IMG/VR virus record: IMGVR_UViG_3300006751_000037
Coordinates: 1 to 38,419 of that record
Reading direction: 5' to 3' (one strand)
Source: a virus
DNA: 38,419 nucleotides
Part shown: piece by piece, positions 8,545-34,758 of the stretch
Layout of the letters: each line of letters starts with the position of its first letter
How positions within the stretch are numbered: position 1 is the first letter of the stretch
Program-made: the position numbers and the translations under genes
Notes under the pieces: generated by a model
What the model was told of the DNA's origin: nothing
The model's database searches: none
Seen by the model: only the letters and a program-made list of their open reading frames with translations

Positions 8545-9357
8545 ATGGCAAAGAAGAAAAAACCTGATGAATTTTTTGGAGAAGATACCAAGTTTTGGAT
8601 GGGAAGGGTTGTAAGTGTTTCTGCCCAAAAGAAACAGATTGATGGTTATGGTTGGGGATGGAGATATAAGGTTCGCATTTTTGGTTCCTATACTGATCAA
8701 GATGTTAGTGATAGTGAAGTCCATACTGCAACTGCAATGCTTGGAGTTAGTGATGGTAGTGGTGGTGGAGGAAGATCTAGATCGTTAAGAATTACTCAAG
8801 GTGATATGGTGTTTGGATTTTATATGGCACCTGATGAGGGATTTCCTGTTATAATTGGAGTCTTTCCAAGGACAAGAGAATCAGAAACTAAGACTGGTTT
8901 TACTGGGGCAGTAAAGAAAGGATTAGCACCAGTTGAAATAAGTGAGCAAGGAGGTGCTCCTATTCCAGTTTTAAACGATAATAAGAATACAAAAGGACCG
9001 ACTAATCCATCTAAGTCAACTCCTGGAGATTTACTTCAAAAACAACTGGGAATAGATCCTAAGCAAATGCCACAGTTAGGTGCTATTCCAAATCCATTAA
9101 AACCATTAGCAGACAGAGGAAAGGAACTAATTGAGTCAGGTGGATTAAAAGATATAGCTTCTAAAATTTCTAAATCAGGATCATTGGGTAGTGGTTTTCC
9201 AATTAGTGCAGATACTATAAAAACTATTGGTAAAGATCTACCAGAAGTGATAACTGAATTTGTAAATGATCCAGCGACAGGAGATGCTGTTGCTGCTTCA
9301 ATAGATAATGTAAAAAGTGAGGTAGAGTATGCTGCTGGAAAATTGGGAATCTTCTAA
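8545..9357 (+). CDS. 5: gp5-type baseplate hub spike, OB-fold part, 270 aa
   Basis: Residues about 15-115 look like the gp5/gpV N-terminal OB-fold: FWMGRVVSVSAQKKQIDGYG, WRYKVRIFGSY, then AMLGVSDGSGGGG and RITQGDMVFGFYMAPDEGFPVIIGVFPRT. In T4, gp5 joins this OB-fold to a lysozyme domain and a C-terminal beta-helix. Here no lysozyme Glu-Asp-Thr core is recognisable in the remaining 150 residues, which are Pro/Gly/Lys-rich (about 115-200) then helical (ADTIKTIGKDLPEVITEFV). A beta-helix gene lies two genes on (11249), so the spike seems encoded in pieces. The number '5' rests on the OB-fold and on position after the gp27-like gene. Confidence 0.7.
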   Translation: MAKKKKPDEFFGEDTKFWMGRVVSVSAQKKQIDGYGWGWRYKVRIFGSYTDQDVSDSEVHTATAMLGVSDGSGGGGRSRSLRITQGDMVFGFYMAPDEGFPVIIGVFPRTRESETKTGFTGAVKKGLAPVEISEQGGAPIPVLNDNKNTKGPTNPSKSTPGDLLQKQLGIDPKQMPQLGAIPNPLKPLADRGKELIESGGLKDIASKISKSGSLGSGFPISADTIKTIGKDLPEVITEFVNDPATGDAVAASIDNVKSEVEYAAGKLGIF

Positions 9358-9361
9358 ACAT

Positions 9362-9369
9362 AATAAATA
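9362..9369 (+). promoter_or_regulatory. late promoter motif AATAAATA
   Basis: AATAAATA lies in the 34-base gap after the OB-fold gene, 22 bases before the next ATG (9392). It matches the NATAAATA late -10 element exactly and is one of the few promoter candidates in a true intergenic space here. Confidence 0.65.
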
Positions 9370-9391
9370 ACCTTATATATACTGACCATAA

Positions 9392-11245
9392 ATGACGACA
9401 GCAGCACCTCCTACTCTGAATTCTAAACAGGCAAAGTATTTTACGCAGCTTATAAAAGATAATCCAACAGATAAGTATTCGCAGAATATTATTAATACTG
9501 TTAAGAAGAGTTATCCTGCTTTGAATGATATATTACCTGAGAAACCTACTGGTGCTCAGGCATATTTGGAATACACTAACAGGATGAAAGAATATAAGAA
9601 TTTTGAAGCAGATAAAGTTACTCCTGCTTCTATTACTTCTGGAAATATAATTATTCTTGCTGATGCTCAACAGAATACCTTTATGGAGACCATTGAGTCT
9701 GATCTAGGTAATTTTATGGATAACATTACCAAAGCTGGAAATTTTGGTTTGAATATGTCAAGTGAAATTAATTCATTAACTAATAAAGTAAGTGGATCTG
9801 CAAAACAATTTATTGGACAAATTGGTAATTCATTAGCAGATAAATCAGTAGGATGGATTAAGGGCGGTATAAGCAAGTTAGAACTCTTTAGAAAGATTAC
9901 TAATCCAGTCCCTGCAGTTGCATTGGCGTTGACCATAATGGATCAGACAGCATTAATTAGTCCTGTTAAGAAACTTTTTGGTGCATTTGATTGTTTGACA
10001 TCAAAAATAAGTGATGCTTTAACAAATACTGTTAAGGATCTGCTTACTGGTATGGTTAAGAATGTTATTAACACTGCTGTTTGTGCTGTACAGCAATTTG
10101 TAGGTGCTTTAACAAGTAAGATCGCAGATATGATGAATGGATTTCTTGGTGGGTTTTTTGGTCCAGTTGAAAAAGTTTTCAGTTTAATTGGACATGCGAT
10201 GGATATTAAGGGTGCAATATTCGGTGGTATGAATATGATTAATAAGGTCGGTAACTTATTCAGATGTGCTAAACCAGCTAAGATGGTTGCTAGTCATAAA
10301 CATACAATAGATGTTGGTTCTGGTAAAAATTCTACTGACACAGAAACCCAGGCTAAGATGGATAAGACAATTGCTGCTGCTGGTAATGCTAATGCTTCTA
10401 AAGCAGCAAAGAAAGAAGGACTTGTATCAGGAATCACTGGCGGTTTAAGTAAATTTGAAGAACAGTATGGTGAATGGGGTATTTTTGGATCTAAAGTTAA
10501 AGATGCTGGTAATCAAGGTATAGGAAATTGTAATACTAGTAATCCATTTGCATGTGGTTCACCAAAAGTAGAATTTTTTGGTGGTGGAGGAGGAATTGGT
10601 GCTGCTGGTGATATAATACTTGGTAATTTTATTAACCATTTAGATAAAGAAGATATCTATGGGGATATTAAAAAAACTGGTAGTATAGTTGGTGTTAATA
10701 TAACGTCACCTGGTGAAGGTTATACTGAAGAACCGATGATAGCATTTACTGATAGTTGTAAACAGGGATATGGTGCATATGGTAGAGCAAAAATAGATTC
10801 TAATATTAATTCTCCTACTTATGGACAAGTGATTGATGTCATAGTTGATACTGAAGGAGAATATTATCCAACGGATAATTATCAAATAGTTGATAATATT
10901 CCTGATGATGAAGGAAATATTATTACTAATGTATTAGATGGTGAAAATAGTGAAGTTTATATTGATAATGTTATTATTGAGAACCCAGGAGTTGGATATA
11001 ATGAAGATGATGTTATTGAAGATTATGATGATCTTAAGCTAACTATTGATGATGGTAGAATTGTAGGAGTTGAAGTTATAGAACAATTGGGTTATAATAG
11101 TCTTCCAGAACTTAATATAGTATCAGAAACTGGAGGATTAGCAGTTCTTCATCCAATAATGAAAATTCGGAGAAGAACAAGACCTCAACTAGAAGTTATG
11201 GATCAGATCCAATGTATTGGTAATTTTCCTAGAGGTGAGGATTAA
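9392..11245 (+). CDS. virion structural protein (hub/spike-associated), 617 aa
   Basis: I do not recognise a T4 counterpart. Residues 1-85 are polar. Residues about 110-300 are Ala/Gly/hydrophobic and probably helical (SVGWIKGGISKLELF; VPAVALALTIMDQTALI; MADMMNGFLGG-like segments), the kind of sequence found in hub proteins. Residues about 430-605 contain a degenerate repeat built around a 'v.i..pGeGY..eP.i.f' unit: NITSPGEGYTEEPMIAF, VIVDTEGEYYPTDNY, VIIENPGVGYNEDDV and VIEQLGYNSLPELNI. Such GxGY units recur in marine phage tail fibres. The end is IQCIGNFPRGED. Its place between the OB-fold and beta-helix spike genes suggests it belongs to the hub/spike complex. Confidence 0.6.
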   Translation: MTTAAPPTLNSKQAKYFTQLIKDNPTDKYSQNIINTVKKSYPALNDILPEKPTGAQAYLEYTNRMKEYKNFEADKVTPASITSGNIIILADAQQNTFMETIESDLGNFMDNITKAGNFGLNMSSEINSLTNKVSGSAKQFIGQIGNSLADKSVGWIKGGISKLELFRKITNPVPAVALALTIMDQTALISPVKKLFGAFDCLTSKISDALTNTVKDLLTGMVKNVINTAVCAVQQFVGALTSKIADMMNGFLGGFFGPVEKVFSLIGHAMDIKGAIFGGMNMINKVGNLFRCAKPAKMVASHKHTIDVGSGKNSTDTETQAKMDKTIAAAGNANASKAAKKEGLVSGITGGLSKFEEQYGEWGIFGSKVKDAGNQGIGNCNTSNPFACGSPKVEFFGGGGGIGAAGDIILGNFINHLDKEDIYGDIKKTGSIVGVNITSPGEGYTEEPMIAFTDSCKQGYGAYGRAKIDSNINSPTYGQVIDVIVDTEGEYYPTDNYQIVDNIPDDEGNIITNVLDGENSEVYIDNVIIENPGVGYNEDDVIEDYDDLKLTIDDGRIVGVEVIEQLGYNSLPELNIVSETGGLAVLHPIMKIRRRTRPQLEVMDQIQCIGNFPRGED

Positions 11246-14348: not shown

Positions 14349-17300
14349 ATGCCTGATAACACAAATGTTAATAATAATGCGGCAGTTACCGTTGTAGGTA
14401 GAACTGCACCCGTTCCGCCTGGTCAACAAGTATCTGCTAAATCAATACCTGTTGTTGTTGCTAGTGACCAATCAACGATTCCTGTTGCTGAACAAAATAA
14501 GGTACAGTCAGAAGTTGCATTATCATTACTTGGTATTCCTAGATCAGAAGTTGCACTTGGTATTTTTGCAGATGTTAATACTTATGATGTAAACCCTACA
14601 GAATGGGCAGCAACACCAGAACAGTTTAAAACAGTTGCTAATGATGGTGCATATGCTGGTGTTGCTGCAACTATGGGTCATGGGTTAACGCACGTTCCAG
14701 CAGAGTCTGGAGCACTCTTAGAGGCACCTGCTGATGATAGTGCGTTATTAACTTCAAAAAGGTTTTTTAGATATCAACCAGGTCGTGTTTCTGCTGCTAC
14801 TTTTGGTGTTAAGACAACAACTATTGATAGTGCTGGAAAGGCATCAGATGGAATTGGTAATCCAGCAATTCGTAAATATGGTATTTTCGATAAGTATGAT
14901 GGGTATTATTGGGAAACAAGAAATAATGGTAAAGGAGATAATTTTTGCGTAGTTAGAAGAACACAATCTATTCCACAATTTAATCCATTAGGTTTCCCTA
15001 ACGTACAAACAGAAGATTATGGTGTTACTAATCCACCAGATCCTTTAGCACCTAGAGCTTCTGAATCAGACCCTACTGATGTTCCTACCAATCCAGTAGC
15101 AATTCCTGCAGGATATAAAAATAGAGAGTTTGGCGATTTGGTTATTCTTAGGGATAACTTAATAATGACCCATGCTGGTTGCTATGATCCAACAGTATTA
15201 CAACCAGAAAGTAAGGAAGATATTAGTGCAGTAACTACTACAACAGGCAATTCAATTCTTACCTTACCTAATGTAGCAAAACAAATTACAGACGCATCAT
15301 ATAATATTGATACTGGATTAATGACCATCACTACAGATGGTGCTCATGATTTTAATAAAGGTAAGTTTCTTACATTAACTGGCATAACAATGTCATGTAC
15401 TGTTACTGGGTCTGTTGTTAATAAGACATATCCTAATAGAGCAGATGAAAGATTTAATGGATTTAATGTAGTAAAAGTTAACTCAACTACTCAATTTGTT
15501 ATTAATTGTGGTATTTCTACTGTTCCTACAACATATGTTTCTGGTGGATGGGCAGTTGGATTATCTACTGCTCAGTATGTTAGATATACTAAAGGATTAA
15601 ATGCGGATCCAATATCAGGTTTATCAGATACTAAGATTTATAAACTTCATAATGTCACAGTTAATACTTCAACTGGAGTAACTACTGCTAGATTAATAAA
15701 CATAAGTTCTTCAGGGGAACAAGCAGTTACTGGTTTAACTGCTGGAACAGAATATACTAATCATAGTTTAATTACACCAGTCCCTTTTGTTCAACCATTG
15801 ACAAACAATATGGCAACTATTGTTGGTCGTGGAACTACAGTAAATTCTCAGCATACGAGATATACTTCAATAGAAACTAATGATGCAAATGCTGATTCTG
15901 CTGGAACAGGTATGTTCCCATATGTATATGAAAGTTCTACGGGTAGTAAGGAAGGTTATATTGATACTAGGGCATCAACATCATCAGAGTTATCCACACT
16001 TCAACAAGAAATTAATAATGTAAATGATGCATATCATAATTGGGTAAATCAGAATGTTGATATAGATTATTGGAATGTTTATGAATATCGTATTCCAAGA
16101 TCAAGGTTTAGTGGTGATAGATTAGATTATCTAACGGATACATTATTGTATAGTGATTCAGTAGCAACAAATAAACCTGGTGCTAAAGTTTTAGATTCTG
16201 CAACTAGTGCAGTATTAACTGATAGTAGTATTTGGGATCTTGCATTTGATAAGGTTACCATGTATAAGATTGAGTTCTCATGGTATGGTGCTGTTGGTGC
16301 TTTATTCCTTGCATATGTTCCTGTAAGTAATGGTGAAGCAAGATGGGTTCGAGTTCATCATTTAAGATGTTCTAATCAACTTAAGATGGCTTCTCTTGGT
16401 AATGCCACATTACCAATCACTTATATGATATATGGTGGTGGTGGAGCAAATTCTTTAGGGTATGCTAATAATCTCAGATTAGTTTCTCAATATGGTTCTG
16501 GTGCTGAATATATTATTAAGTATGGTGCTTCATATTACATTGATGGTGGAGATAGGGGAACTGTAAAATTATTCAGTCATGCTAATGATACTTCTAGTGA
16601 AGTATTTGGTAGTAAGAGAACTTTTGTTGTTGGAACAGGTGCTACTCATGTGGGACTAACAACTGCCATTGATGCAAATGAACCTTACATATATGCTGGA
16701 TCTAATTCTGGATTGTCAACTTCATATTATGTTGGTGCAAAGGTAGTTACTGGTCAAGTATTAGACCAGAATATTGAAATAACACACGTTGGTATTGCTA
16801 GTGATAGACTTTATTTAAATGCTCCTCTTAGTTCTGCTTTATCTGGTGGGCAGGTAATTACAATTATACCTCAACGTCCAGTATCTTTAGTGGGATTAAA
16901 ATGTAGAGATTTTATAGCAAGTAGCACTGGGCAATTGGTCAGAAATAGAACACAGGTTTATCCTACAAGATTATCAACTGGATCTACTAGTGGTGTTGCT
17001 AAATTGGATTTAATTAAATCTCCAGTATTTCAAACTGATGCAGCAGTAACTAATAGTAATGGTCCAATGTTACGTTCAAAAGTAAGTATTGGTAAGAGAG
17101 GAAAACCAACAAGGGTAGATGTTCCATTAACAACTTATGGTGGAGCACATACTTATGTTGGTGGTAATGTTAATGATATAGTTACTACTGATAATGGATC
17201 AACAACTTTTGATGTTCTTGCTACAGGAACAGCATATGATTCTACTACTGGATTATTGACGATAGGGATTAATGGTGGCACTAGTGCTTTTACAGTCGAT

Positions 17301-21400: not shown

Positions 21401-22043
21401 TGGGGTTCTTATTACCACACTTACATATCTTACGGAACCAAAATTTTGGGATGATGGTGGTACATATAAATCATTTATTGAGATAAGTGGTGATATTAGT
21501 GCATTTACTGCTGGTAATGTAACTAGTGGAATAGAGATAAAGATACGTCCTGTTAATTTAAAATCTAGTTCTAGAAATGTTACTAAGTTGTATAATTATA
21601 ATCCATATCCTCTTTATTTTGTTGCAAAGTTAGGAGATAATGCGGCAATTCATAATATTTCTATAAAGGAGAAAATAGGAGATTATACTCGAACTATTTC
21701 GCCAATATTTGCCTTGAGTACTAATGCCCAACTTACTAATGCTAGTAGTTTGGCAGAGTCTGATGGTTCTCCACCTACTAATTTTGTTGAGATTGATAGA
21801 TTGTCATCTGCTATAGTAGATAATCAAAATACACAGAGATTAAGAACATCCGAATTAAAGGATGTTTTCTATGTCGGTGAGAATGAAACTAAGAAAGTTG
21901 ATATGACTAAAGTATTTGGACCAAGTAAAACTGTTATAATGCCAACTAATAATAATATTGAAGCAACGTTTTTTACTGCTAAGAAAATAAAAGGAAGTGG
22001 TAATGGTAATATTCAAATGGGTCTTAATTACGGTGAGCAATAA
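18441..22043 (+). CDS. giant tail/baseplate structural protein, 1200 aa (paralogue B)
   Basis: This is a tandem paralogue of the preceding gene, with the same blocks in the same order: SEVSSTLLGVNRAELQLSLF, RVFRYQPGRISGFTFGV, MWKIEFGWYGAIGCRFYGYI with GEARWVVIHTF, YGSSYYIDGGDEGT and GITCKDLMVNSVGQEIKN. Unique parts are an N-terminal insert with a 'GDKLSGVGIPDGTIF' beta repeat (about 90-150), a Tyr-rich region (about 280-330) and a beta-rich C-terminal third ending GNIQMGLNYGEQ. The last base of its stop is the first of the next ATG (TAATG). A baseplate or fibre-base role is inferred from the family and neighbours. Confidence 0.65.
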   Translation: MTNGGKDVKIGHDKRPISIIPDNKEPLYSFATGQKLLDEYGNELLVETDTYNLKDQGSDRSTPIVFPSEVDTYNRIEYETILSNQTITVNSLVGNPNLISFAVPGNASGIVTTGDKLSGVGIPDGTIFTGGRVGAGAFRVSNNLVGIGTRAIDVLRRSNAAKKSDPIWKIQEQFAESSEVSSTLLGVNRAELQLSLFSDVSSYGLDIDEFEFSNYNTGTSLGSWNQRVNEVYGKRYSGKLIEATQESAIKLGGFRVPYSFPFPPATAELGWYNETFYNQYINFINLGIDLYNYYAGSAGNAYPAEWKSQFLSPSAAYVDSGGTVKYPAGTESSFAAIDIWTETWRSILKQELRDPVTNQVFLFADILALSNDFATKYPTATDIRPGYSDTNSSYSTLLSRRVFRYQPGRISGFTFGVRSSVESNQGYNIEWGIGNPTDHYLFKIKQGNLYIVRRSTIPLNATALERSGLSLIDQTYEGTGDGLDKHPITGEPMKYYTIEVPQDNFNGDPLNGNGLSGYNVNPKNVTMWKIEFGWYGAIGCRFYGYIPVSAGEARWVVIHTFIIENSLNQPCLQDSYFRLRYVLHTYNTADLREPQYVYKYGSSYYIDGGDEGTQSINSSASGNKVINTTNEETLLGITCKDLMVNSVGQEIKNKKTLFPISATFTSDSLSEIRVQRCKACPGFGHVYTPGLKTGINGRYIKVAFIDANTIVGIDPTTGSGISFLPDDAGAKLIAPTLWNTYLVNLSGSDGSGGFTQARTAGWSGTSGGNLTFRDIADGSLYLDSTSGSAVTILSDPNGTQVYPHQVRLSNWNDATVSSTVELTGSEITIQFLNPDPRDSYSHYADFTIGVTNIQPDIDPGTPTVLDGWNIAGISTTILPNSNMLYDYHSHRYSSINQDGVETGETHGGQNPNPNMEIDFRIPTVGGIEGGYCSNVTIKVNDPQSVTDLEQVTTNPLIPSQTGFYLVKNGSFPVGILFSTGEVVIENNGVLITTLTYLTEPKFWDDGGTYKSFIEISGDISAFTAGNVTSGIEIKIRPVNLKSSSRNVTKLYNYNPYPLYFVAKLGDNAAIHNISIKEKIGDYTRTISPIFALSTNAQLTNASSLAESDGSPPTNFVEIDRLSSAIVDNQNTQRLRTSELKDVFYVGENETKKVDMTKVFGPSKTVIMPTNNNIEATFFTAKKIKGSGNGNIQMGLNYGEQ

Positions 22044-24475
22044 TGGCATTAACTAACCCAAAAATATTTGGTCTAGAAGTAGATAGAAATCTAGCAGATG
22101 TAAAGAATACTAATACCGCATTAAGGTCATTAGATTTAGATATTAAAGATTTAGATGTTATTCGTGGTAGCCTTTCTGAGGGTATGTCGGAAAATGATTG
22201 GTTGAGTTTCTCTGGATTGAATATACCAATTTATAAAGAACTTGCTAGATATCTGGAAGACAGTGGTGCATCAAGTAGTTATTTGGATAAAAGAGCTGGA
22301 ACTAACATAATATTATTTGGAAATATAGATGTTAATGGTGCTCTAAGTGGTAATGCAATACGATATAGGTATGTAAAAGGATTAGGAACTAATAGTAGAA
22401 GTTTTGCAATAGCAGATATATCAACTTCTAGAATTAGTTCTTGGAGTTCTTCAGCTAGTCCTGTTATAGCAAGTTCTCCTATTTCATATGGAGCACAGGT
22501 AAAAGTTTCTACTGGTGGAAAATTGCAATTTGGTACTCAATCTGGTGCAAGTGGAAATAGATTGCAGACTACATTGACACCAGAGTTAAAAGAATTTGAT
22601 TCGGAGTTTCCTACACATAAGATTCAAACAAATATAGGTGGATCAACAGTAAATGTTTATGCAATGAAAGGAATACCAGTTGTTTGGAGTGTATTCTTTA
22701 GAAATGTAAATGCTGACATCTATCTATCTTCACTTACACAGAGTACTAAAGCAAGTTGGAAAGTTGAGCAAACTAGTGATTTAAGTAGATATACTAATTA
22801 TACGAATCAAGGTGGTACTCATACTTATATTAGATATAGATCTGTTGTATCAAAAGAAAGAAATATTAAATTTTATTATAATCCAGATAAGATAACTTCA
22901 ATTTCTCTTCATTGGGCAAATCTTGCAGAGTTACCTCCTGTTAAATTTAATAATGCAACCACTATAGCTTTTTCTCATAATAAATTAACAGTTTTTCCAG
23001 ATTTTACTGATTTAACTCCTATTGTGAGAACTCTAGAAGTTGGAAATAATCCATTTAGATATTCAGAAATTTCTACAGAGAGAAAGTTGAATAGTGCTAT
23101 TATTAATAAAATTCCTACTACTGTTACTAATCTTTATTTGGGTAGTACTTTTGGTGGATCTTTTGATAGTGATTTAATAGCAGATCGTCTTCCTAATCTT
23201 TCAACTCTTAATCTTAATAATCATTATGGTCCATCGTTTACTGCGGATAATACTACGGCAGTTCTTCCAAATGTGACTAGTAGTATATCAAATTATTATA
23301 TGTATCATAATAATTTTACAACAATAGATGGTAATCCAAGTGGAAGTAATATTAATATAATGCAAGCAACTAATTTATCTCAATTAACACTTCATTATAA
23401 TAGAGGTCTTAGTATAGATCCATTTACTCTTGCAAGTAATGTTCTTGATTATGTCAATATTAGTGTTACTGGTTTAAAATTACCTAATTTGAATAATAAA
23501 TCTATAAGATTAATGTATGCATATCATAGAGGTACTAGTGATACATTATTTGATGGAACTCAATATAAGTTTGATAATTGTAATAATTTAACAACATTAC
23601 ATTTATATAATTCTTGGGGTCTTACTGGACCATTTCCTAAATTTACAAATCCTGCTTTATCGTATTTGGACTTAAGATATTGTAGTATGTCTGGCGGTGA
23701 AATGAATCCAAATGGATCTACTAATACTACATATGTTCTTCCTGAATTTACTTTCCAGAATGCATCAAATCTTAGAGATTTTTATTGGTTTTCTCGTGGG
23801 TCTAATTCATTAGCTTCACCTATCCATCCAAATGCACTTTCGTTTTTACCGAATTTGTATCATGTCTATTGGATTACTTGGTATAGAACACCAGGAGCAT
23901 TACCTAATTTGGGTGGTAATCCTGCTTTACGTTATTGTAGATTCCCATATAATGCCTTTACTGGTAATATGCCAACATTTACTGGTAATCCAAGTATCTA
24001 TTATGTTGAATTGCAATATAATCAACTTAGTGGCAGTATTTCATCTCTTGCAAATTTAACTAATTTATATCAATTGAGATTGTATAATAATAATTTTACT
24101 GGAATTGGAACATTTGAGAATTGTACAAATTTGAGATATTTTTGGTGTCATAATAATCAGATCTCAGGAGAAATACCAGATTATAGTGGATGTCCTAGAT
24201 TATATTATCTTGTGATGTATAATAATCAATTATCAACTTATAAAGTAGGTGCATTTAAAAATATAACGCAAATAAGATATATCAATCTTCAGAACAATAA
24301 TTTAAATCAAACATCTATTAATAATATACTTGCAGATTTATATGATAATTATTTGGCTTCTCCAAGAGGTAGAGTTACTATAGACCTTCGTGGTAATACT
24401 TCTCCTACCAATGGTGGTAGTAATGAATATATACAGATATTAGAAACAAAAGGTTGGGATATTAGGCAGGATTAA
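22043..24475 (+). CDS. leucine-rich-repeat tail protein, probable receptor-binding, 810 aa
   Basis: Residues 1-30 (GLEVDRNLADVKNTNTALRSL at 10-30) match the N-terminus of the minus-strand PA14 protein position by position. Residues about 60-285 are beta-rich (GNIDVNGALSGNAIRYRYV). From about 285 to 780 runs a long array of leucine-rich repeats, for example ITSISLHWANLAELPPVKF, TIAFSHNKLTVFPDF, NLYQLRLYNNNFTGIGTF, NLRYFWCHNNQISGEIPDYS and LYYLVMYNNQLS. Several repeats carry the 'N.ltG.iP' form usual in plant-type repeats. The array ends with a capping segment (TIDLRGNTSPTNGG). LRR solenoids are protein-binding surfaces, so host receptor binding at the tail tip is the likely job; this is inference. 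Confidence 0.8.
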   Translation: MALTNPKIFGLEVDRNLADVKNTNTALRSLDLDIKDLDVIRGSLSEGMSENDWLSFSGLNIPIYKELARYLEDSGASSSYLDKRAGTNIILFGNIDVNGALSGNAIRYRYVKGLGTNSRSFAIADISTSRISSWSSSASPVIASSPISYGAQVKVSTGGKLQFGTQSGASGNRLQTTLTPELKEFDSEFPTHKIQTNIGGSTVNVYAMKGIPVVWSVFFRNVNADIYLSSLTQSTKASWKVEQTSDLSRYTNYTNQGGTHTYIRYRSVVSKERNIKFYYNPDKITSISLHWANLAELPPVKFNNATTIAFSHNKLTVFPDFTDLTPIVRTLEVGNNPFRYSEISTERKLNSAIINKIPTTVTNLYLGSTFGGSFDSDLIADRLPNLSTLNLNNHYGPSFTADNTTAVLPNVTSSISNYYMYHNNFTTIDGNPSGSNINIMQATNLSQLTLHYNRGLSIDPFTLASNVLDYVNISVTGLKLPNLNNKSIRLMYAYHRGTSDTLFDGTQYKFDNCNNLTTLHLYNSWGLTGPFPKFTNPALSYLDLRYCSMSGGEMNPNGSTNTTYVLPEFTFQNASNLRDFYWFSRGSNSLASPIHPNALSFLPNLYHVYWITWYRTPGALPNLGGNPALRYCRFPYNAFTGNMPTFTGNPSIYYVELQYNQLSGSISSLANLTNLYQLRLYNNNFTGIGTFENCTNLRYFWCHNNQISGEIPDYSGCPRLYYLVMYNNQLSTYKVGAFKNITQIRYINLQNNNLNQTSINNILADLYDNYLASPRGRVTIDLRGNTSPTNGGSNEYIQILETKGWDIRQD

Positions 24476-24477
24476 AA

Positions 24478-25413
24478 ATGGCACCAATACCAAATCAGGG
24501 ATACCGACAAGATTTAAGTTTACAAGAAACTCCTGCAGATGATACTGCATTGAATAATATTGGTGGTGCTGGTATAGCAGGTGATCTTAGAATTATACAA
24601 AATAATTTAAGAAATATATCTACTATTGGGTATAGTAGTCTTACTGATGGATTCTTTAGTTTTGGTTCAGATTATACTTTTACTAATGATGATCCACTTA
24701 CTGTTAGTCAGACAATAACATTTAGTGGTGAAGGAATTATTGGAGTGTCATCTACTTATTATGTTTGTAATTCTAATACAGTAGATAAATTTAAACTTTC
24801 TTTACGACCATCAATACATACATCTGGATTAAGTATAGTAGGATTTGCAGGAACGTCTAATACTAGGTTTAATTTTACTAGAAGTGATAAGGTTATAAGA
24901 GAGAATCTTGTTAATTTTGTTAATCCACCAAATTTAATGGATGATGATTTTAGAATCCTTGGTAATTATGATATTAATGGCGCATTTGATCAAACTTTAA
25001 CTAATGTAGAAACTACTAATTATTTTATTACTAAGAAATATAAAGGTGCAGAAGATACTACTAGTAATAAAGATATTAAAATGGAGGGGCATGTTTATGT
25101 TAAAGATCCATTAGCATTTAATGATAGTGGAACTGATTTATCTGATGCTAAATCTCCTGGAGTATTCATTGGCGATACTCGTGCATTTTCTAGTGATAAT
25201 AATCCTTGGTCAGAAGAAGGAGCAGCTGATGGAACTGGGCATTTGCAGACTGCTAGTAATGAAGTAGCTGTTGGTGAATTGAATTTTGTTAATAGTATAA
25301 CAGTTACAGGAATATCTAAAGTATCTGAATCATTAGGTGGTGTTACTTCTTATAGTCATAAGATGCCAGCAATTATTAATGGGGAAACTTATTATCTTTT
25401 ATTAAAACAATAA
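24478..25413 (+). CDS. tail structural protein with shared N-terminal tag, 311 aa
   Basis: I do not recognise a family. The N-terminus (GYRQDLSLQETPADDTALNNI at 8-28) is a looser version of the tag found in the LRR and PA14 proteins. A later motif, RILGNYDINGAF (159-170), echoes ILFGNIDVNGAL of the LRR protein. The rest is beta-rich and Asn/Thr/Ser-rich, with TITFSGEGIIGVSSTYYVCN and HVYVKDPLAF, ending GETYYLLLKQ. It could be a short fibre or spike. It starts 2 bases after the LRR gene and ends back-to-back with the minus-strand gene, with no base between the two stop codons. Confidence 0.6.
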   Translation: MAPIPNQGYRQDLSLQETPADDTALNNIGGAGIAGDLRIIQNNLRNISTIGYSSLTDGFFSFGSDYTFTNDDPLTVSQTITFSGEGIIGVSSTYYVCNSNTVDKFKLSLRPSIHTSGLSIVGFAGTSNTRFNFTRSDKVIRENLVNFVNPPNLMDDDFRILGNYDINGAFDQTLTNVETTNYFITKKYKGAEDTTSNKDIKMEGHVYVKDPLAFNDSGTDLSDAKSPGVFIGDTRAFSSDNNPWSEEGAADGTGHLQTASNEVAVGELNFVNSITVTGISKVSESLGGVTSYSHKMPAIINGETYYLLLKQ

Positions 25414-27615
25414 TTATTCGCACAGGAGTTTAAATGTTCCTGATGGTGTATCAATACTTACTCTACCACTAACTGTTTCGGTAAGACCAGAACTTAATGC
25501 TGTTATAGTACTAATACCAGTAGCAGTTAGAGTATCAAATTTTATATTTCCATTATCAACTTTCATACTAGGTCTAATAGATTTAGTTTCTAATCCTTCC
25601 TCAGTTGGAGTAAATGGTGGGGATGTATCTAATGGTGGGCAACATAATACTCTTTGATTTACATCACTACTTTCTCTTGTTGCTGTAACTTTTTCACCTT
25701 CCAGTAATTTTGCTGTTGTTGCATTGTTAATAGTAATATTATTACCAGGTGTACCAGTTATTGTAGTATTTGCTGCAAATTGTGATCCTAAAACAGAATA
25801 TGTTCCTGAACCTAGATCACTATTATTATCTACTCCAATTGTGGTATTTCCAGCATTAACATCAGCACTTACGATTAAACAAACAGTTTCTACTGGAGTA
25901 CAGAATGCACTTAGAGAATCATTTATTAATCCCCTATCTTGATAGAAATACATTTCTCTAGAACTAAGATTCTGAGATGGGAAAATCGTAACTTGTGAAC
26001 TGCTTCCCGTTGTTGTAATACCAGTTAATGCAGATACCCCATTACAAATCAGAATCATATTAGTTCTTAGATTTGTAGTATTACCACTTGATACCGTTAA
26101 AGTAGTTCCACTTGTAGATCCAGTTACATTTTTAACAAATCCACGATGATCTATAAAGGTGATTGTATTAGATCCACTAGCAGTCATATTATTATTTAAA
26201 ACTACAAAAGAATTATAGACAATATCATTAACTACAGTATCAGCAGCAATACCAGTTCCAAATACCCTATTTCCTACTTCTATACTTTCTGTATTACTTA
26301 CTGATAAGATAGGAGATCCACTAACTGTAGTATAGGTGCCTGTTCTTCTTTCTATTTCAGAGTATGCTTCCTTGGGTTTATATTTAATATCAATTTTTTT
26401 AGTGGATCTTAATTTAACATAATCTGTTTCACTTGCAGGAGTTGCTCCTGCATCAGTAAGACCAATTATACCTCCACCAAAAAGGACTGAAGTATCTAAG
26501 TATGTTGCAAATTCACCTTTTGCGGCATTAGTAAAATCATAAGCAGTATCATATAGGTAGGTAAATCTTAAATTTGCAATATAAGTTCCTGAACCAGGAC
26601 CAGTAAAATCAAAATTAATATTTTTATCTGCAGATGTGGATGATACTGATCGTGGAATAAAGTATCGGAATCTTATTGAGTATCTTTCTGTTTCTCTAAG
26701 AACATATGTTTGATGACTAGTGCTGGTAGATTGTCCCATTACTTTAGTAAATGTGACATCAGTATTCCAGGAACCAGTAATAGAATTAGTACCATCTGGT
26801 CTTTCAAATGTAATTACTCCAGTAGTTTTATCAATACCAGTTACTGCCGCATCTGCTTGTATATGATTTCCTGGTTCTGTTGCACTCATTCCAATGGCAA
26901 CATATTTTGTATTTGCTGGGCTATCTATAGTTAAGGTATTTCCAGCACTACTTGCTTCAGCAGCAAAAGTTCTTGCTATTCCTATATTCTGATGTTCTGT
27001 ATATTTTGTTCCTGAACCTGTGTTATGATAACTTTCAGTTTCAAAGTCAAATGTAAAGCAATTTGCACTAGATATATGAAATGTATGTAATCCTGTTTGT
27101 GTTGGTATGAAAAATCCTTCCCATTCAATTCCACCGTCTGCATCAGATGATGCTGGATCTAATTTATCAGTATATGTAAATTCACCATCTTGCCAAAAAT
27201 AATCTATTTTAAATGGACTTCCACTAAAAATATTTGCTGTATTTTCATCTACTTGATTAGAATCATAATAACTTGCTTTTAGTCCATTACCACCCTTTAG
27301 TCTTGGTTCTCCACTAAAGACTCTAAATTTGTCTAATTTGTTTTTATATGTTATTGGTGGTGAAACTGCAGAAGATGTTCCACTACTATTTGTACTTTCT
27401 GTTGCACTACCAATAACTTTTTGATATCCGTCAGGGCCTAAATTAGCATTCCATATATTTCTAATTGAATTTAAATCTTCACTTATATAATTGGCAGGAG
27501 ATGCTTTTGTAACTAATCCATCTAAAAGATTATTTAAGGCATCTTTTGCATTGCCAACATCTGAAAGATTATTGTCTCTTCGTATACCTATTCTTTGAAA
27601 TACTTTTTGCGGCAT
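25414..27615 (-). CDS. PA14-domain tail protein on the opposite strand, 733 aa
   Basis: Residues 1-30 carry the shared tag (GIRRDNNLSDVGNAKDALNNL at 10-30). Residues about 110-355 look like a PA14 domain, a carbohydrate-binding beta-barrel: GLKASYYDSN, FKIDYFWQDGEF, IEWEGFFIPTQTGLHTFHIS, and after an insert RYSIRFRYFIPRS and YIANLRFTYLYD. The insert (about 224-290) resembles three further beta repeats at about 435-488, 499-557 and 588-648 of the form 'G..L.V.....i..G..V.GtGI..dT.V..I'. A short end (IRPSMKVDNGNIKFDTL) suggests a trimer-forming tip. Similar PA14 proteins occur among tail proteins of T4-like cyanophages, where the gp10 number is sometimes used; a glycan-binding role is likely. 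Confidence 0.72.
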   Translation of the reverse strand: MPQKVFQRIGIRRDNNLSDVGNAKDALNNLLDGLVTKASPANYISEDLNSIRNIWNANLGPDGYQKVIGSATESTNSSGTSSAVSPPITYKNKLDKFRVFSGEPRLKGGNGLKASYYDSNQVDENTANIFSGSPFKIDYFWQDGEFTYTDKLDPASSDADGGIEWEGFFIPTQTGLHTFHISSANCFTFDFETESYHNTGSGTKYTEHQNIGIARTFAAEASSAGNTLTIDSPANTKYVAIGMSATEPGNHIQADAAVTGIDKTTGVITFERPDGTNSITGSWNTDVTFTKVMGQSTSTSHQTYVLRETERYSIRFRYFIPRSVSSTSADKNINFDFTGPGSGTYIANLRFTYLYDTAYDFTNAAKGEFATYLDTSVLFGGGIIGLTDAGATPASETDYVKLRSTKKIDIKYKPKEAYSEIERRTGTYTTVSGSPILSVSNTESIEVGNRVFGTGIAADTVVNDIVYNSFVVLNNNMTASGSNTITFIDHRGFVKNVTGSTSGTTLTVSSGNTTNLRTNMILICNGVSALTGITTTGSSSQVTIFPSQNLSSREMYFYQDRGLINDSLSAFCTPVETVCLIVSADVNAGNTTIGVDNNSDLGSGTYSVLGSQFAANTTITGTPGNNITINNATTAKLLEGEKVTATRESSDVNQRVLCCPPLDTSPPFTPTEEGLETKSIRPSMKVDNGNIKFDTLTATGISTITALSSGLTETVSGRVSIDTPSGTFKLLCE

Positions 27616-27629
27616 CTTGACTTTTTAGG

Positions 27630-27636
27630 TATTTAG
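27630..27636 (-). promoter_or_regulatory. late promoter motif CTAAATA for the PA14 gene
   Basis: On the minus strand CTAAATA ends 14 bases before the PA14 ATG (27615). This would let the inverted gene be expressed late on its own. The transcript leader would be only a few bases long. Confidence 0.5.
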
Positions 27637-28635: not shown

Positions 28636-31600
28636 ATGCCTCTTAATAAGCTGGAAAACTTTATAAAGAATACCGAGGGTCGTATTCTTTATGTTAATCC
28701 TAATGACCTTGATGCTACAGACGCAATATCAAATCAGGGTAATTCATTAACTCAACCCTTTAAGACGATTCAACGAGCGTTGCTTGAATCTGCTAGATTT
28801 TCTTACTTGAGAGGTAATGATAATGATATCATTGAGAAAACAACAGTCCTTGTATATCCTGGCGAACATGTAGTAGATAATAGACCTGGATATGGTATTA
28901 AAGTAGATCCTAGTAACTCTAGTGCAGCACAAGTAGTATCCCCTTCAGGAACTGTTTCACCTGCTACAACATTATCATTAACATTAACATCAGAGTTTGA
29001 TTTAACAAGAGAAGATAATATCCTTTATAAGTTTAATAGTATTCATGGTGGTGTAATTATTCCTCGTGGTACTTCTATTGTTGGACTAGATTTAAGAAAG
29101 ACTAAGGTTAGACCAAAATATGTTCCTAACCCAACAGATTCTACTGTCCCAGATAGTTCTATCTTTAGGGTAACTGGTGCATGTTATTTCTGGCAGTTCT
29201 CTATCTTTGATGGTGATGAGAGTGGAACAGTTTATACTGATAATACAGACTTCAGTTCTGCCAATAGATCAAAACCAACGTTCTCTCATAATAAGCTAAC
29301 TGTATTTGAATATGCAGATGGTATAAATGATCCTTCTGGATATACTAGAACTGACTTAGCAATGTATTATGCTAAGTTATCTAATGCTTATGGTGTAGAC
29401 TCTACTAGAGATATTGTAGCTGCTGACACTTATCCTACAAGTCTTGCTGGATTTGCTCCACAAAGACCTGAGTATGAAATTGTTGGTGCATTTGCTGCTG
29501 ACCCAGTTCAGATGGCATCAATTGAATCTGGTAGTGGTGGCACACCTGGTTCAATTATTACAGTTACAACGTCTACTGCTCATGGATTAAATGCAGAGAC
29601 ACCTATTAAGATTAAAGGTATTCCAGTTCCTGATTATAATATTTCAACTAAGGTTGCTAGTGTAATTAGCACCATTCAGTTCACATATATTATGCCATCT
29701 GTTAGGGTTAATTTACCTACTAATCCTAGTGCATCATCAGGAACAGTAACTATTGAAACTGATAACGTATCTGGTGCTTCACCTTATATCTTTAACTGCT
29801 CTATGCGTTCTGTATGGGGTATGAATGGTATGCTTGCCGATGGTAACAAGGCAACTGGATTTAAGTCAATGGTTGTTGCCCAGTTTACTGGTATTTCACT
29901 ACAGAAAGATGATAGAGCATTTGTAAAATATGATCAAACAAGTAGAACATATCAAGGTGTTAATATTAACTTAGTTAGGGGATCTAATCTATCTTCACAG
30001 TCATCCTCTACCGACTCTAGTAAGGTTTATCATTTAGATTCTCAAGCTGTTTATAGGAAAGATTGGGGAACCAGTCACATTAAGATTACTAATGATGCAA
30101 TTCTTCAGATAGTATCTGTGTTTGCTATTGGTTATCAGCAACACTTTGATGTAAGAACTGGTGGTGACGCATCAATTACTAACTCAAACTCTAACTTTGG
30201 TCAGATTTCACTATCTGCACAAGGATTTAAGAAAGAAGCATTTGATAAGGATAATACTGCATATGTTACTTCTGTTATTACTCCAAGGGCAGCAACAGGA
30301 TCACAAACTAGCATTGACTGGCAAGCAATCGATGTAGGTGTTACTACTGCTGTTGGTATTTCAAGTCATCTTTATATCTTAGGATTTAATAATCAGGATG
30401 ATCCACCTCCAACAGTTATTTTGGGATACCGTTTAGGTGCTAAACAGGATGATGAAATCAATGTAAAAATTTATGATGTAGCTGCCACTACGGATAGAAT
30501 TCGGACAGCACCAATTTACATGGTTGATAATGATACCAGTGCTGGATCTGGTACTACAGTTTCACAAGGAACAACATCTAAACAAAAGTCTTATACTGTT
30601 CAATCAGCAACTGTTGATAATAAACTTAATCTTGGAGCACACTCTCTTAGGACAGGTGAAAAGATACGAATTTTCAGTCATCAAGGTGATTTACCTGAGA
30701 ATTTAGAACCAAATACTGTATATTATGCTATTGACCAGCAGAATAATGCTGAAATTAAAGTAGCATCTAATAAAACAAATGCGGAGAATAATTCTTTCAT
30801 TACGATATATGGTGGATCTGGATTATATGTTGAAAGTAGAGTTCATGATAAAGATTCTGGTGATGTAGGACATCCAGTTCAGTGGGACTCATCTAATAAT
30901 CATTGGTATGTTCACGTTGGAACCAATAATTCCATTTATACTGATATATCAAATTATGGTCAATTTGGTAATATTGGTATTGGTGAAAAGACTCAAGTAT
31001 CATATGTTAGTAGAACTGATGACCAAAGAGGTCTTGATGAAAAGATCTATAAGTTACGTGTTGTAGTTCCTGCAGAGACTGTTAATGGTAAGAATCCTGA
31101 AGAAGGATTTATTATTCAGGAATCTAGTAGCACAGGAGCTAGTGCTGATACTGATTTTACTTTTACTTCACTAACTCCAGACCCAGAGAAAAAATATGGT
31201 GTTCTTAGGAATTTAAGACTTATTGATAAGTGTACAGTTTCTGCTAATGTTGTTACTGTAGAATGTGAAGTTCCCCATAATTTGAAAGTTGGTGAGCATG
31301 TTAATATTAAGAATGTATCAGATACCACTAATACTAATGGTTTATATGATACTGGATATAATGGAACATTTATTATATCAACTATCACTGATGAGAAAAC
31401 ATTTACTTATTCTGATACTGATGTAGATGGAGTTTCGCACACTATTCCTAGTGCATCTACTAATAATATATCTACGAGAAGTATAACTTCACCTAGATTT
31501 GAAAGGAATGATAATAGATCTAATTTCTACATCTATAGAAATGAGGTTATAACTCCTTATATTGAAGGTATTCAAGATGGTATCTATCACATATTTGTCA

Positions 31601-34600
31601 TAAAAGCAGATAACACTATTACTGAAGAGTTTACTGATCTTACTTATGGTCAGAATGTTGTTGATCTTTATCCACAAAGAGATAGAGATAATATTGAGGA
31701 CAATCCTCAAGCAGCACAATCTTTTGCTAAGAGAACTCCTATAGGTGATGTTGTTACTAATGAACTTAAGAAGAGTATAACAAGAGAATCTGTAAACCAA
31801 TTCTTAACAGATTTTGGTGCAGGTCATAGAATTACTGGCATATCAACATCAAATACTGCTTCTGTTCTTACATTTGATAGAAGGCATGACCTTCAAGGAC
31901 TTGTAAGTGGAACAATTACTGCGGGTTCTGGTTATACTAATGGAACTTACTATAATGTTAAGATCCTATCTGGTAACCAAGCAGGTAGTTGGAATGGAGC
32001 ACTTGCAACAGTAGTTGTATCTGGTGGACAAGTTACATCTGCTAAGATAACATCTGGTGGTTCTGGATATTCTGCTGGAACATATTTCTTTGAACAAGCA
32101 AAGATTAGTAATGGTAGTGCAGACGCAAGATTTGTCGTTTCTGCTGCTGGAATTAGTAATAACGATGGAGAGGTTCTACAGATTACAGGACTTACCACTA
32201 CTACTGATTGGCATACTTATATTGCTGATGTTCCTTCTTCAACAACCGTTTCTGTTGCTAGGACTACAGGAGATCCAATTGTTTCTCTTAATCAATATGC
32301 ATTAAATCTTGGCCCTTCTATAGCAGTAGGTTCTACAACTAACTCTCATACATCTGGTATTACAACATTCACCTGTTCTGTTGGTCATGGATTAGTTGCT
32401 GGTAATCAGTTTAGAGCTTTAGATACTAATAATAATAAACTTGGCGACTTCTATGTTAAAGAGAGAACGGGTGCTTTAACATTCTCTGCTAAGACAGCAG
32501 CTGGACTTAATACTACTGGTAACATTGGAGTTCCTACAAAGGTTCTAAGACTTGGAATGGCAGCTGCCGATGCAGTTTCTGATGATACTAATGAAAGTCT
32601 TGGTGCAAGAGGTGTTCCAGTATATGATGGGGAACAGGCAAAACTTGTTGCAAATGTAACAACTGGTAACACGATAAGAATACAAGTTCCAAGTTCTGGT
32701 ATAGGCACTGCTACTAGATTCCCAATGGGTTCTTATATCCAGATTGGTGGTGAGATAATGAGGATTACTAGTTCTACTATAACTGGTGCTTCTCTTGATA
32801 CTGTTGAAGTTGTTCGTGGTGCATTAGGAACTATTACAAAAAGTCATACTGCCAATGATCTGGTTAGAAAGATTAAACCATTAGCAGTTGAATTCCGTAG
32901 ACCATCTATTATTCGTGCATCAGGTCATACATTTGAATATGTTGGTTATGGCCCAGGTAACTATTCAACTGGTTTGCCTCAAGTTCAGGTTAGAACTTTA
33001 ACTGAAAGAGAAGAGTTCTTATCACAATCACAAGAAAGATCTTGTGGAACTGTTGTTTATACTGGTATGAATAACAGAGGTGACTTCTTTATTGGTAATA
33101 AGCGAGTTAGTTCTTCTACTGGTCAGGAAAGGACATTTGATGCTCCTGTTGCTACAATTACAGGTGAAGATCCTTCAAGACTATCAGTTATCTTTGATGA
33201 AGTAATTGTCAAGGAAAGATTGATTGTTGAGGGTGGTAAGACTAATAAGATTCTATCTCAGTTTGATGGCCCTGTAACATTCAATAAGGAAGTTAAGATT
33301 AATGATACTCTTACTGTTGTTGGTAATTTAAAATTAAATTCTCCTGTTGAGATCCTTTCTGATGTTCAATCGGTTAATAAAGATACTGGTTGTTTAGTAC
33401 TTGAAGGTGGACTTGGTGTTGAGAAGAATTTAAACGTTGGTGGTATTACTACCATTACTGATTATCTTAACGTAACTAATGGTGCTGTTATTTTAGAAGC
33501 AGGTAGTTCTAATGAAGGTTATCTGATTGACTCTGGTAATGACATTGAGATGAATCTTCACAGATCCACTGTGTCTGATCAACCAATAGTTCTTGATGTC
33601 ATAGATGGCAAGAGACTTGTTCTTGGTGCTAATGGCACTGGTAATGTTGAGATAAGAGATTCTGCTGCTGTAAATGGCGTTAGAAGAGCAATATTTACTG
33701 AGAATCAACAAGAATTGTACTATAATGGCAATGAGAAATTTGCCACAGCTCCAGGTGGTGCATTTGTAACAGGAAACTTCACTACTGACAGTTTCGAGGT
33801 TATAACTACATCAGTATTTGGTGGTTTGATATCGAATGATTCAAATTTAAGTAATGATGGTTGGTTAGCAGTTGGTTCAACAGCAACATTTGATGGAAAT
33901 GTTACTGCTCCATTATTCATAGGCAATCTTCAAGGTAATGCTGACACAGCATCTAACCTATCAGGTAATCCTAATCTTAATACTTCAGGTATCATTACAT
34001 GTTCAGTTCTTCATGCCACTAACACTGGTGCTGGTCATGGTAAGTATGTTGGAACTGGTGTTACTGTTGCAGGACATCTTTGGGTACAAGATGATTTACG
34101 TGTTAATGGTGTTACTACCTTTACGCAAAATGTTCATCTTTTAGATGATGATGTATTATACTTTGGTGGGTCAGCAGGTACAACTGATGGACTTGAAATT
34201 AAGCATAATAGTAATGAGAGTATTATAAGAGATTCTGGAACTGGTAATCTTCTTGTTCAAGGTGGTTCTACAATAAAAATCCAGAATACTTCAGCAGCCA
34301 ATAGTGCTGAGTTTGATGTTACTGCTGGTGTTAAACTTTACTGGAGAGGTTCTAATGATGGTGTTAAGTTTGAAACCCTTCAAGGTTCTAGTGGAAGTGC
34401 AGCAGCAAAAGTTCATGGTCAGTTAGATGTAACTGGTAATATTAGAGCATTTACTTCTGATATTAGACTTAAGACTAACATTGAACCAATCACTGATGCA
34501 TTATCAAAGGTTGACTCTTTAACTGGTTTCACTTATAATCACAATGAAATTGCTGCTGAATTAGGATTTGATACTGAAATTAGATATGCTGGTGTATCTG

Positions 34601-34758
34601 CTCAAGAACTTGAAGAAGTTCTACCTGAAGTAGTTTCTCCTGCTCCTGTTGATGAAGATTACAAGACAGTTGACTATGCACATATTGTGCCACTTCTAAT
34701 TGAAGCAATCAAAGAACTTAAAGCAGAAGTCGAGGAACTAAAGAAACATAGCCACTAG
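28636..34758 (+). CDS. long tail fibre protein with S74 intramolecular chaperone, 2040 aa
   Basis: The N-terminus (EGRILYVNPNDLDATDAI, then GNSLTQPFKTIQRALLESAR and VLVYPGEH) is typical of marine T4-like tail fibres and leads into a beta-helix-like stem. The middle has many beta repeats, including 'HGL....i.i.gi' blocks and ITAGSGYTNGTYY / ITSGGSGYSAGTYF. From about 1560 come fibre repeats (LEGGLGVEKNLNVGGITTIT; GWLAVGSTATFDGNV). The last 100 residues are a peptidase S74 chaperone: SDIRLKTNIEPITDALSKVD (Ser1941), GVSAQELEEVLPEVV, VDYAHIVPLLIEAIKEL, ending in a coiled coil. In this family the domain trimerises the fibre and cuts itself off before the Ser, which would leave a fibre of about 1940 residues. 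Confidence 0.88.
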   Translation: MPLNKLENFIKNTEGRILYVNPNDLDATDAISNQGNSLTQPFKTIQRALLESARFSYLRGNDNDIIEKTTVLVYPGEHVVDNRPGYGIKVDPSNSSAAQVVSPSGTVSPATTLSLTLTSEFDLTREDNILYKFNSIHGGVIIPRGTSIVGLDLRKTKVRPKYVPNPTDSTVPDSSIFRVTGACYFWQFSIFDGDESGTVYTDNTDFSSANRSKPTFSHNKLTVFEYADGINDPSGYTRTDLAMYYAKLSNAYGVDSTRDIVAADTYPTSLAGFAPQRPEYEIVGAFAADPVQMASIESGSGGTPGSIITVTTSTAHGLNAETPIKIKGIPVPDYNISTKVASVISTIQFTYIMPSVRVNLPTNPSASSGTVTIETDNVSGASPYIFNCSMRSVWGMNGMLADGNKATGFKSMVVAQFTGISLQKDDRAFVKYDQTSRTYQGVNINLVRGSNLSSQSSSTDSSKVYHLDSQAVYRKDWGTSHIKITNDAILQIVSVFAIGYQQHFDVRTGGDASITNSNSNFGQISLSAQGFKKEAFDKDNTAYVTSVITPRAATGSQTSIDWQAIDVGVTTAVGISSHLYILGFNNQDDPPPTVILGYRLGAKQDDEINVKIYDVAATTDRIRTAPIYMVDNDTSAGSGTTVSQGTTSKQKSYTVQSATVDNKLNLGAHSLRTGEKIRIFSHQGDLPENLEPNTVYYAIDQQNNAEIKVASNKTNAENNSFITIYGGSGLYVESRVHDKDSGDVGHPVQWDSSNNHWYVHVGTNNSIYTDISNYGQFGNIGIGEKTQVSYVSRTDDQRGLDEKIYKLRVVVPAETVNGKNPEEGFIIQESSSTGASADTDFTFTSLTPDPEKKYGVLRNLRLIDKCTVSANVVTVECEVPHNLKVGEHVNIKNVSDTTNTNGLYDTGYNGTFIISTITDEKTFTYSDTDVDGVSHTIPSASTNNISTRSITSPRFERNDNRSNFYIYRNEVITPYIEGIQDGIYHIFVIKADNTITEEFTDLTYGQNVVDLYPQRDRDNIEDNPQAAQSFAKRTPIGDVVTNELKKSITRESVNQFLTDFGAGHRITGISTSNTASVLTFDRRHDLQGLVSGTITAGSGYTNGTYYNVKILSGNQAGSWNGALATVVVSGGQVTSAKITSGGSGYSAGTYFFEQAKISNGSADARFVVSAAGISNNDGEVLQITGLTTTTDWHTYIADVPSSTTVSVARTTGDPIVSLNQYALNLGPSIAVGSTTNSHTSGITTFTCSVGHGLVAGNQFRALDTNNNKLGDFYVKERTGALTFSAKTAAGLNTTGNIGVPTKVLRLGMAAADAVSDDTNESLGARGVPVYDGEQAKLVANVTTGNTIRIQVPSSGIGTATRFPMGSYIQIGGEIMRITSSTITGASLDTVEVVRGALGTITKSHTANDLVRKIKPLAVEFRRPSIIRASGHTFEYVGYGPGNYSTGLPQVQVRTLTEREEFLSQSQERSCGTVVYTGMNNRGDFFIGNKRVSSSTGQERTFDAPVATITGEDPSRLSVIFDEVIVKERLIVEGGKTNKILSQFDGPVTFNKEVKINDTLTVVGNLKLNSPVEILSDVQSVNKDTGCLVLEGGLGVEKNLNVGGITTITDYLNVTNGAVILEAGSSNEGYLIDSGNDIEMNLHRSTVSDQPIVLDVIDGKRLVLGANGTGNVEIRDSAAVNGVRRAIFTENQQELYYNGNEKFATAPGGAFVTGNFTTDSFEVITTSVFGGLISNDSNLSNDGWLAVGSTATFDGNVTAPLFIGNLQGNADTASNLSGNPNLNTSGIITCSVLHATNTGAGHGKYVGTGVTVAGHLWVQDDLRVNGVTTFTQNVHLLDDDVLYFGGSAGTTDGLEIKHNSNESIIRDSGTGNLLVQGGSTIKIQNTSAANSAEFDVTAGVKLYWRGSNDGVKFETLQGSSGSAAAKVHGQLDVTGNIRAFTSDIRLKTNIEPITDALSKVDSLTGFTYNHNEIAAELGFDTEIRYAGVSAQELEEVLPEVVSPAPVDEDYKTVDYAHIVPLLIEAIKELKAEVEELKKHSH

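Follow-up and report, generated by a model that had tools for sequence, protein, structure and literature searches.

Do three otherwise unrelated tail proteins, encoded side by side on opposite strands of a viral genome, begin with copies of one and the same segment, and if so, what purpose might such a segment serve? The question arises from a 38.4-kb IMG/VR viral record (38,419 nucleotides, hereafter "the window," meaning the whole stretch of DNA that was analyzed) that carries T4-like tail genes, as identified by PHROGs matches to baseplate wedge, tail tube, baseplate hub, and gp5-type hub/lysozyme families. A sequence-only reading of this locus had proposed that the three proteins carry a common docking tag, which plugs exchangeable recognition heads into a single socket on the virion.

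Three tail proteins with similar N-termini

Protein A (810 aa) is encoded on the plus strand at positions 22043 to 24475 and consists of an N-terminal tag, a middle region, and leucine-rich repeats (LRRs), whose top-scoring stretch lies at residues ~695 to 754 (24125 to 24304, plus strand; Pfam LRR_4 and LRR_8, with E 2e-16 for LRR_4). Protein B (311 aa; 24478 to 25413, plus strand) combines a tag with a beta-rich body, as judged from its open reading frame (ORF), its orthologues, and a structural model with a pLDDT of 62. From the same kinds of evidence (model pLDDT 72), protein C (733 aa; 25414 to 27615, minus strand) is assigned a tag, a PA14/GLEYA lectin-fold domain, and further beta domains. 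The tags correspond to residues 1 to 61 of A (22043 to 22225, plus strand), residues 1 to 45 of B (24478 to 24612, plus strand), and residues 1 to 71 of C (27403 to 27615, minus strand).

Other tail genes lie on both sides of this block. Between positions 14349 and 22043, 5′ of A, proteins of 1362 and 1200 aa each carry a phrog_1645 stretch, and their order matches that of the S-TIM5 genes AEZ65692-93; the conserved tail block thus extends beyond the three tagged genes. Farther upstream (8545 to 11245), consecutive ORFs of 270 and 617 aa each match a portion of one gp5 hub/lysozyme PHROG (phrog_1922), in succession, and gp5 is thus apparently split in two genes. P-HM2 likewise has two adjacent genes that are both annotated as gp5. 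On the other side of the block, positions 28636 to 34758 encode a 2040-aa tail fiber with a C-terminal Peptidase_S74 (intramolecular chaperone) domain and without the tag.

Ten identities between A and C had been claimed for the first 30 residues (G10, D14, N16, L17, D19, V20, N22, A26, L27, and L30), and all are present in an ungapped alignment. Among the 378 N-terminal pairs in the window, A and C form the top pair, with the runner-up reaching 7 identities. Only 9 of 200,000 shuffles reach 10 identities, and therefore ~0.02 chance pairs are expected at this level over all 378 pairs. We gathered orthologues of A, B, and C by scanning viral contigs and prepared profiles from their first 90 residues, wherein the A and C families are represented by 32 and 36 sequences, respectively. 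When these two profiles are compared by hhalign, 60 columns align with a score of 53.7 (E 5.2e-10), whereas the maximum among 100 column-shuffled profiles is 18.3. The match is thus well beyond that of random segments, and the similarity of the two tags, as measured by their family profiles, is stronger than is visible from the single sequences.

Protein B had been said to carry a looser version of the tag, situated two residues earlier. Its motif is indeed offset in this manner, and the profile of B aligns with that of C over 38 columns (residues ~5 to 42) with a score of 40 (E 3.1e-7; null maximum 18.0). The looser tag therefore holds when B is compared with C, whereas the score of B against A (18.0 vs a null maximum of 15.8) is marginal by itself. 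Full-length profile comparisons limit the A–C match to residues 1 to 61 of A and 1 to 71 of C and the C–B match to residues 6 to 60, and they yield for A and B only a weak match located elsewhere than the tag. With matches confined to the N-termini in this way, the proposal of one N-terminal module common to three otherwise unrelated tail proteins is borne out, with the B–A link being the marginal one.

The tag consensus reads G[LI]....NLsDv.N...ALnNL, then DL..IRg, and continues in A and C with a less conserved g.t..D...l tail. Pfam and PHROGs scans of the tags gave no meaningful match. The first 30 to 60 residues rank among the more conserved stretches inside each of the three families, a property that is not unique to the tag, as residues 91 to 150 of A exceed the A tag in conservation. 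On the strength of the profile comparisons, A and C carry homologous copies of the module, which lies at the very N-terminus, and the copy in B is probably homologous as well.

Distribution and gene order among relatives

The order and strands of the block (A and B on one strand, C on the other) are kept in 47 of the 47 distinct viral records with a complete set of the genes. Most of the other records contain the block in part, which is expected of contig ends. Orthologues of A occur in ~45 viral records and in the cultured cyanophages S-TIM5 and S-TIM54, which share the three-gene layout, as do the contigs L166 to L169. The three S-TIM5 orthologues bear the annotation of virion structural proteins. 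The B and C genes converge, with ends that most often overlap by 12 nt. The right-hand neighborhood of the block varies, because three contigs (L004, L005, and L007) have a helicase-like ORF (411 aa) 3′ of C, in place of the small ORFs and the 2040-aa tail fiber of the window.

A search with a profile of the tag had been suggested as a check. When all S-TIM sequences are left out of the joint A and C tag profile, it still recovers both genes of S-TIM5, A at E 8e-11 and C at E 7e-6, with no other match in 172 kb. Over 13 whole records, S-TIM54 and contigs of 236 and 152 kb among them, tag matches correspond to A, to C, and weakly to B, with one additional stray weak match. Scans of viral contigs with single tags likewise found A or C only, within the same three-gene block. 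As far as these profile matches indicate, the tag is essentially confined to the A, B, and C genes in whole records.

We also used tblastn to compare A, B, C, and the C tag with 50,697 phage records. At 1e-5, this search returned nothing for the three proteins, and relaxing the threshold to E 10 brought up no match to the C tag. With the A tag, weak matches appeared in the same collection, of which those to S-TIM5, S-TIM61, and S-TIM66 are genuine; a match in Rhizobium phage RHph_Y68 runs antisense to the gene there and was rejected as a chance event. Profile searches found no A/B/C block in P-HM2, S-SKS1, S-CBS4, or single-cell virus AG-345-L05 regions, and no description of the three-gene module was found in the literature searched.

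Across clades, the three bodies have distinct histories. Between the window group and S-TIM5, A aligns over nearly its full length (E 1.5e-25) and has LRRs in both, and B aligns weakly at the tag and a downstream stretch. An unrelated body for S-TIM5 B was considered and dropped, as weak similarity returns at residues 143 to 267. C matches over residues ~6 to 121 and nowhere else: beyond this segment, S-TIM5 C has no detectable similarity to C of the window, and it gives no Pfam PA14 match. Slot C alone is therefore indicated, from sequence comparison, as a place where the body may have been replaced or have diverged very deeply behind a constant N-terminus. Conservation restricted to residues 6 to 121 is the pattern predicted for a conserved anchor whose attached body evolves rapidly. 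When the comparison is confined to the small S-TIM5 clade, the tags of the three proteins fail to detect one another.

Possible roles of the common module

The structural model of C includes a confident domain at residues ~104 to 364 (26524 to 27306, minus strand), which matches PA14, Flo, and Epa lectin domains as well as some other PA14-fold proteins (Foldseek probability 1.00; VIA-align Z 13 to 17). As modeled, the C body belongs to the PA14 beta-sandwich class and carries a PA14/GLEYA lectin-type fold, although a shared fold is not proof of sugar binding. The B model is poor, and its resemblance to a barrel like that of ubiquitin-E1 FCCH (Z about 7) is too weak for use. In both models, the tag is predicted to form two short helices at corresponding places (residues 21 to 29 and 33 to 44 of B; residues 23 to 32 and 45 to 52 of C), followed in C by a helix at residues 61 to 67. 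The low pLDDT of the tag in both models counts against its reading as an anchor, and helices of such low confidence would fit a segment that takes on order only within a complex.

The sequence CTAAATA, a putative T4-type late promoter, is located on the minus strand at positions 27630 to 27636, 14 nt 5′ of the C start codon. It is rarer in the window than expected by chance (8 copies vs 16; positions 2301, 3103, 3779, 8525, 27630, 28108, 35453, and 37143), and all 8 copies reside 12 to 30 nt 5′ of a gene start in the correct orientation. The related sequence (C/A)TAAATA recurs ~21 to 24 nt 5′ of many C orthologues, and exact CTAAATA precedes one A orthologue and no B. CTAAATA is thus likely to be the T4-type late promoter of this phage, and its position fits a separate transcript for C. 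Another candidate, TATAAATA, is absent from the window, and CTAAATA is the better of the two.

The explanation that we favor, and to which we attach about an even chance, is that A, B, and C form a fixed trio of tail proteins in which a paralogous N-terminal anchor is joined to specialized, outward-facing bodies, such that the three constitute a set and not alternatives to each other. They would belong to the baseplate periphery or fibers of a marine, cyanophage-like lineage related to S-TIM5, and each would start with a copy of one ancestral module of ~45 to 70 residues. This module would comprise a short extended segment with NLsDv.n...AL.NL, the first helix included, followed by a second helix with DL..IR. 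As the proximal anchor, it would dock the proteins to the virion, wherein A, B, and C, probably as trimers, assemble on the same or equivalent tail sites. The LRRs of A, the PA14/GLEYA lectin fold of C, and the beta-rich body of B would then face outward to bind the cyanobacterial surface. Such an arrangement would mark A/B/C as an uncharacterized tail module that is probable host-contact machinery and that occurs both in cultured cyanophages of the S-TIM5 type and in dozens of contigs from viruses. It would also provide concrete candidates for cyanobacterial receptor binding, namely an LRR virion protein, a PA14/GLEYA-fold protein, and a small beta protein.

The sequence-only reading went further in proposing an interchangeable docking cassette, wherein a single tag receives heads that are freely recombined. 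The C protein of S-TIM5 speaks for this proposal, as its body is unrecognizable relative to that of the window, yet its tag and linker are conserved. However, variable heads behind a constant anchor are not seen among close relatives, where all 47 complete records retain the same three families in one order. Moreover, slot A is occupied by an LRR protein even in S-TIM5, B retains its weak downstream similarity between clades, and no tag was found before other domains within reach of the profile searches and single-tag scans. The exchange of heads is thus highly improbable. The main rival to an anchor, which we rate as less likely, is that the tag is a copy of a widespread tail-fiber repeat (NLsDl.n..tAr.NLgl) that organizes or trimerizes the chain at the start of a fiber, serving as a building block that entails no common socket. 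When the joint tag profile is searched against the PDB, its one significant match is the short tail fiber gp92 of 9zd7 (E 2.4e-4), which runs via several internal NLaDv.n...Ar.NLgl repeats over tag columns ~5 to 34. The tag conforms to the NLsDl repeat pattern of tail fibers (NLsDv.n...A..NL; not a Pfam family), and an NLsD-type motif also opens the SHSML-45 tail fiber. At a loose threshold, the first 39 residues of this fiber match 360 phage records, among which many carry a tail-fiber annotation. By its motif, the first half of the tag is of a known type of widespread fiber element, and it speaks for a structural or trimerizing role as much as for an anchor.

What this fiber repeat does not account for is that the tag is single-copy and always N-terminal, that its second half (DL..IRg...G.t..D) falls outside the repeat yet is common to A and C, and that none of the window's other tail proteins has the motif. 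In addition, the Pfam family PF03406 (Phage_fiber_2) has no match at E 10 in S-TIM5, S-TIM54, two tagged viral records, or SHSML-45, nor in the tags. Particular to A, B, and C, as far as the alignments reveal, is the combination of a single N-terminal motif copy with a second conserved helix, common to three genes, which shows how a tail-fiber motif of a common type can come to serve anew as one N-terminal module at paralogous positions. We consider it unlikely that the tags of A, B, and C instead bundle with each other as a hetero-oligomeric N-terminal hub carrying three bodies. If they did, each tail attachment site would show a composite adhesin, with LRR, PA14-lectin, and beta-rich arms presented jointly to the cyanobacterial surface. 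The three genes always co-occur in one copy each and in fixed order, which such a hub would explain, and the short helices in the B and C models have conserved hydrophobic positions. Nevertheless, adjacent tail genes are usually co-conserved anyway, and C, encoded on the other strand and preceded by a promoter-like element of its own, may be made in amounts that differ from those of A and B.

Comparison with known phage systems

The fixed trio that we favor has a counterpart in the Aurunvirus members S-TIM5 and S-TIM54 (AEZ65694-AEZ65696 and UYE97282-UYE97284), which share the three-gene block, its strands, and the tags in A and C. Their proteins are larger, however, and their C body lacks detectable similarity to that of the window. 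The first half of the tag, NLsDv.n...A..NL, is held in common with gp92 of 9zd7 and with T5-like fiber N-termini, but the gp92 repeats are internal to the fiber, in contrast to the single N-terminal copy and second conserved helix of the tag.

In phage T4, gp9 and gp10 have related N-terminal parts, and the gp10-gp11-gp12 unit assembles together (PMC3004832). If they lie at the baseplate periphery, A, B, and C would resemble these T4 proteins as neighbors that have a related N-terminal part and assemble together, and they differ in that the bodies of A and C are LRR and PA14 domains. T4 baseplate chains are absent from the PDB matches of the tag profile and of the B and C profiles, and a distant homology is possible.

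Phages with multiple receptor-binding proteins (RBPs), such as Klebsiella phages and K1E/K1-5/SP6, carry several RBPs that have a short conserved N-terminal sequence, thought to be an attachment point, and differing bodies (PMC6872550). These N-terminal peptides can be as short as 7 to 11 residues and are thought to be seated on T4gp10-like branching proteins (PMC6872550). The phage represented by the window agrees with these systems in that several of its tail proteins have a common N-terminal sequence on unrelated bodies, with the link between B and A again marginal. It departs from them in the greater length of the module (~45 to 70 residues), in the assignment of one fixed body to each slot, and in that no gp10-like domain was seen here. 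The module most probably serves to attach all three host-contacting parts in a common manner, a concept already familiar from other phages.
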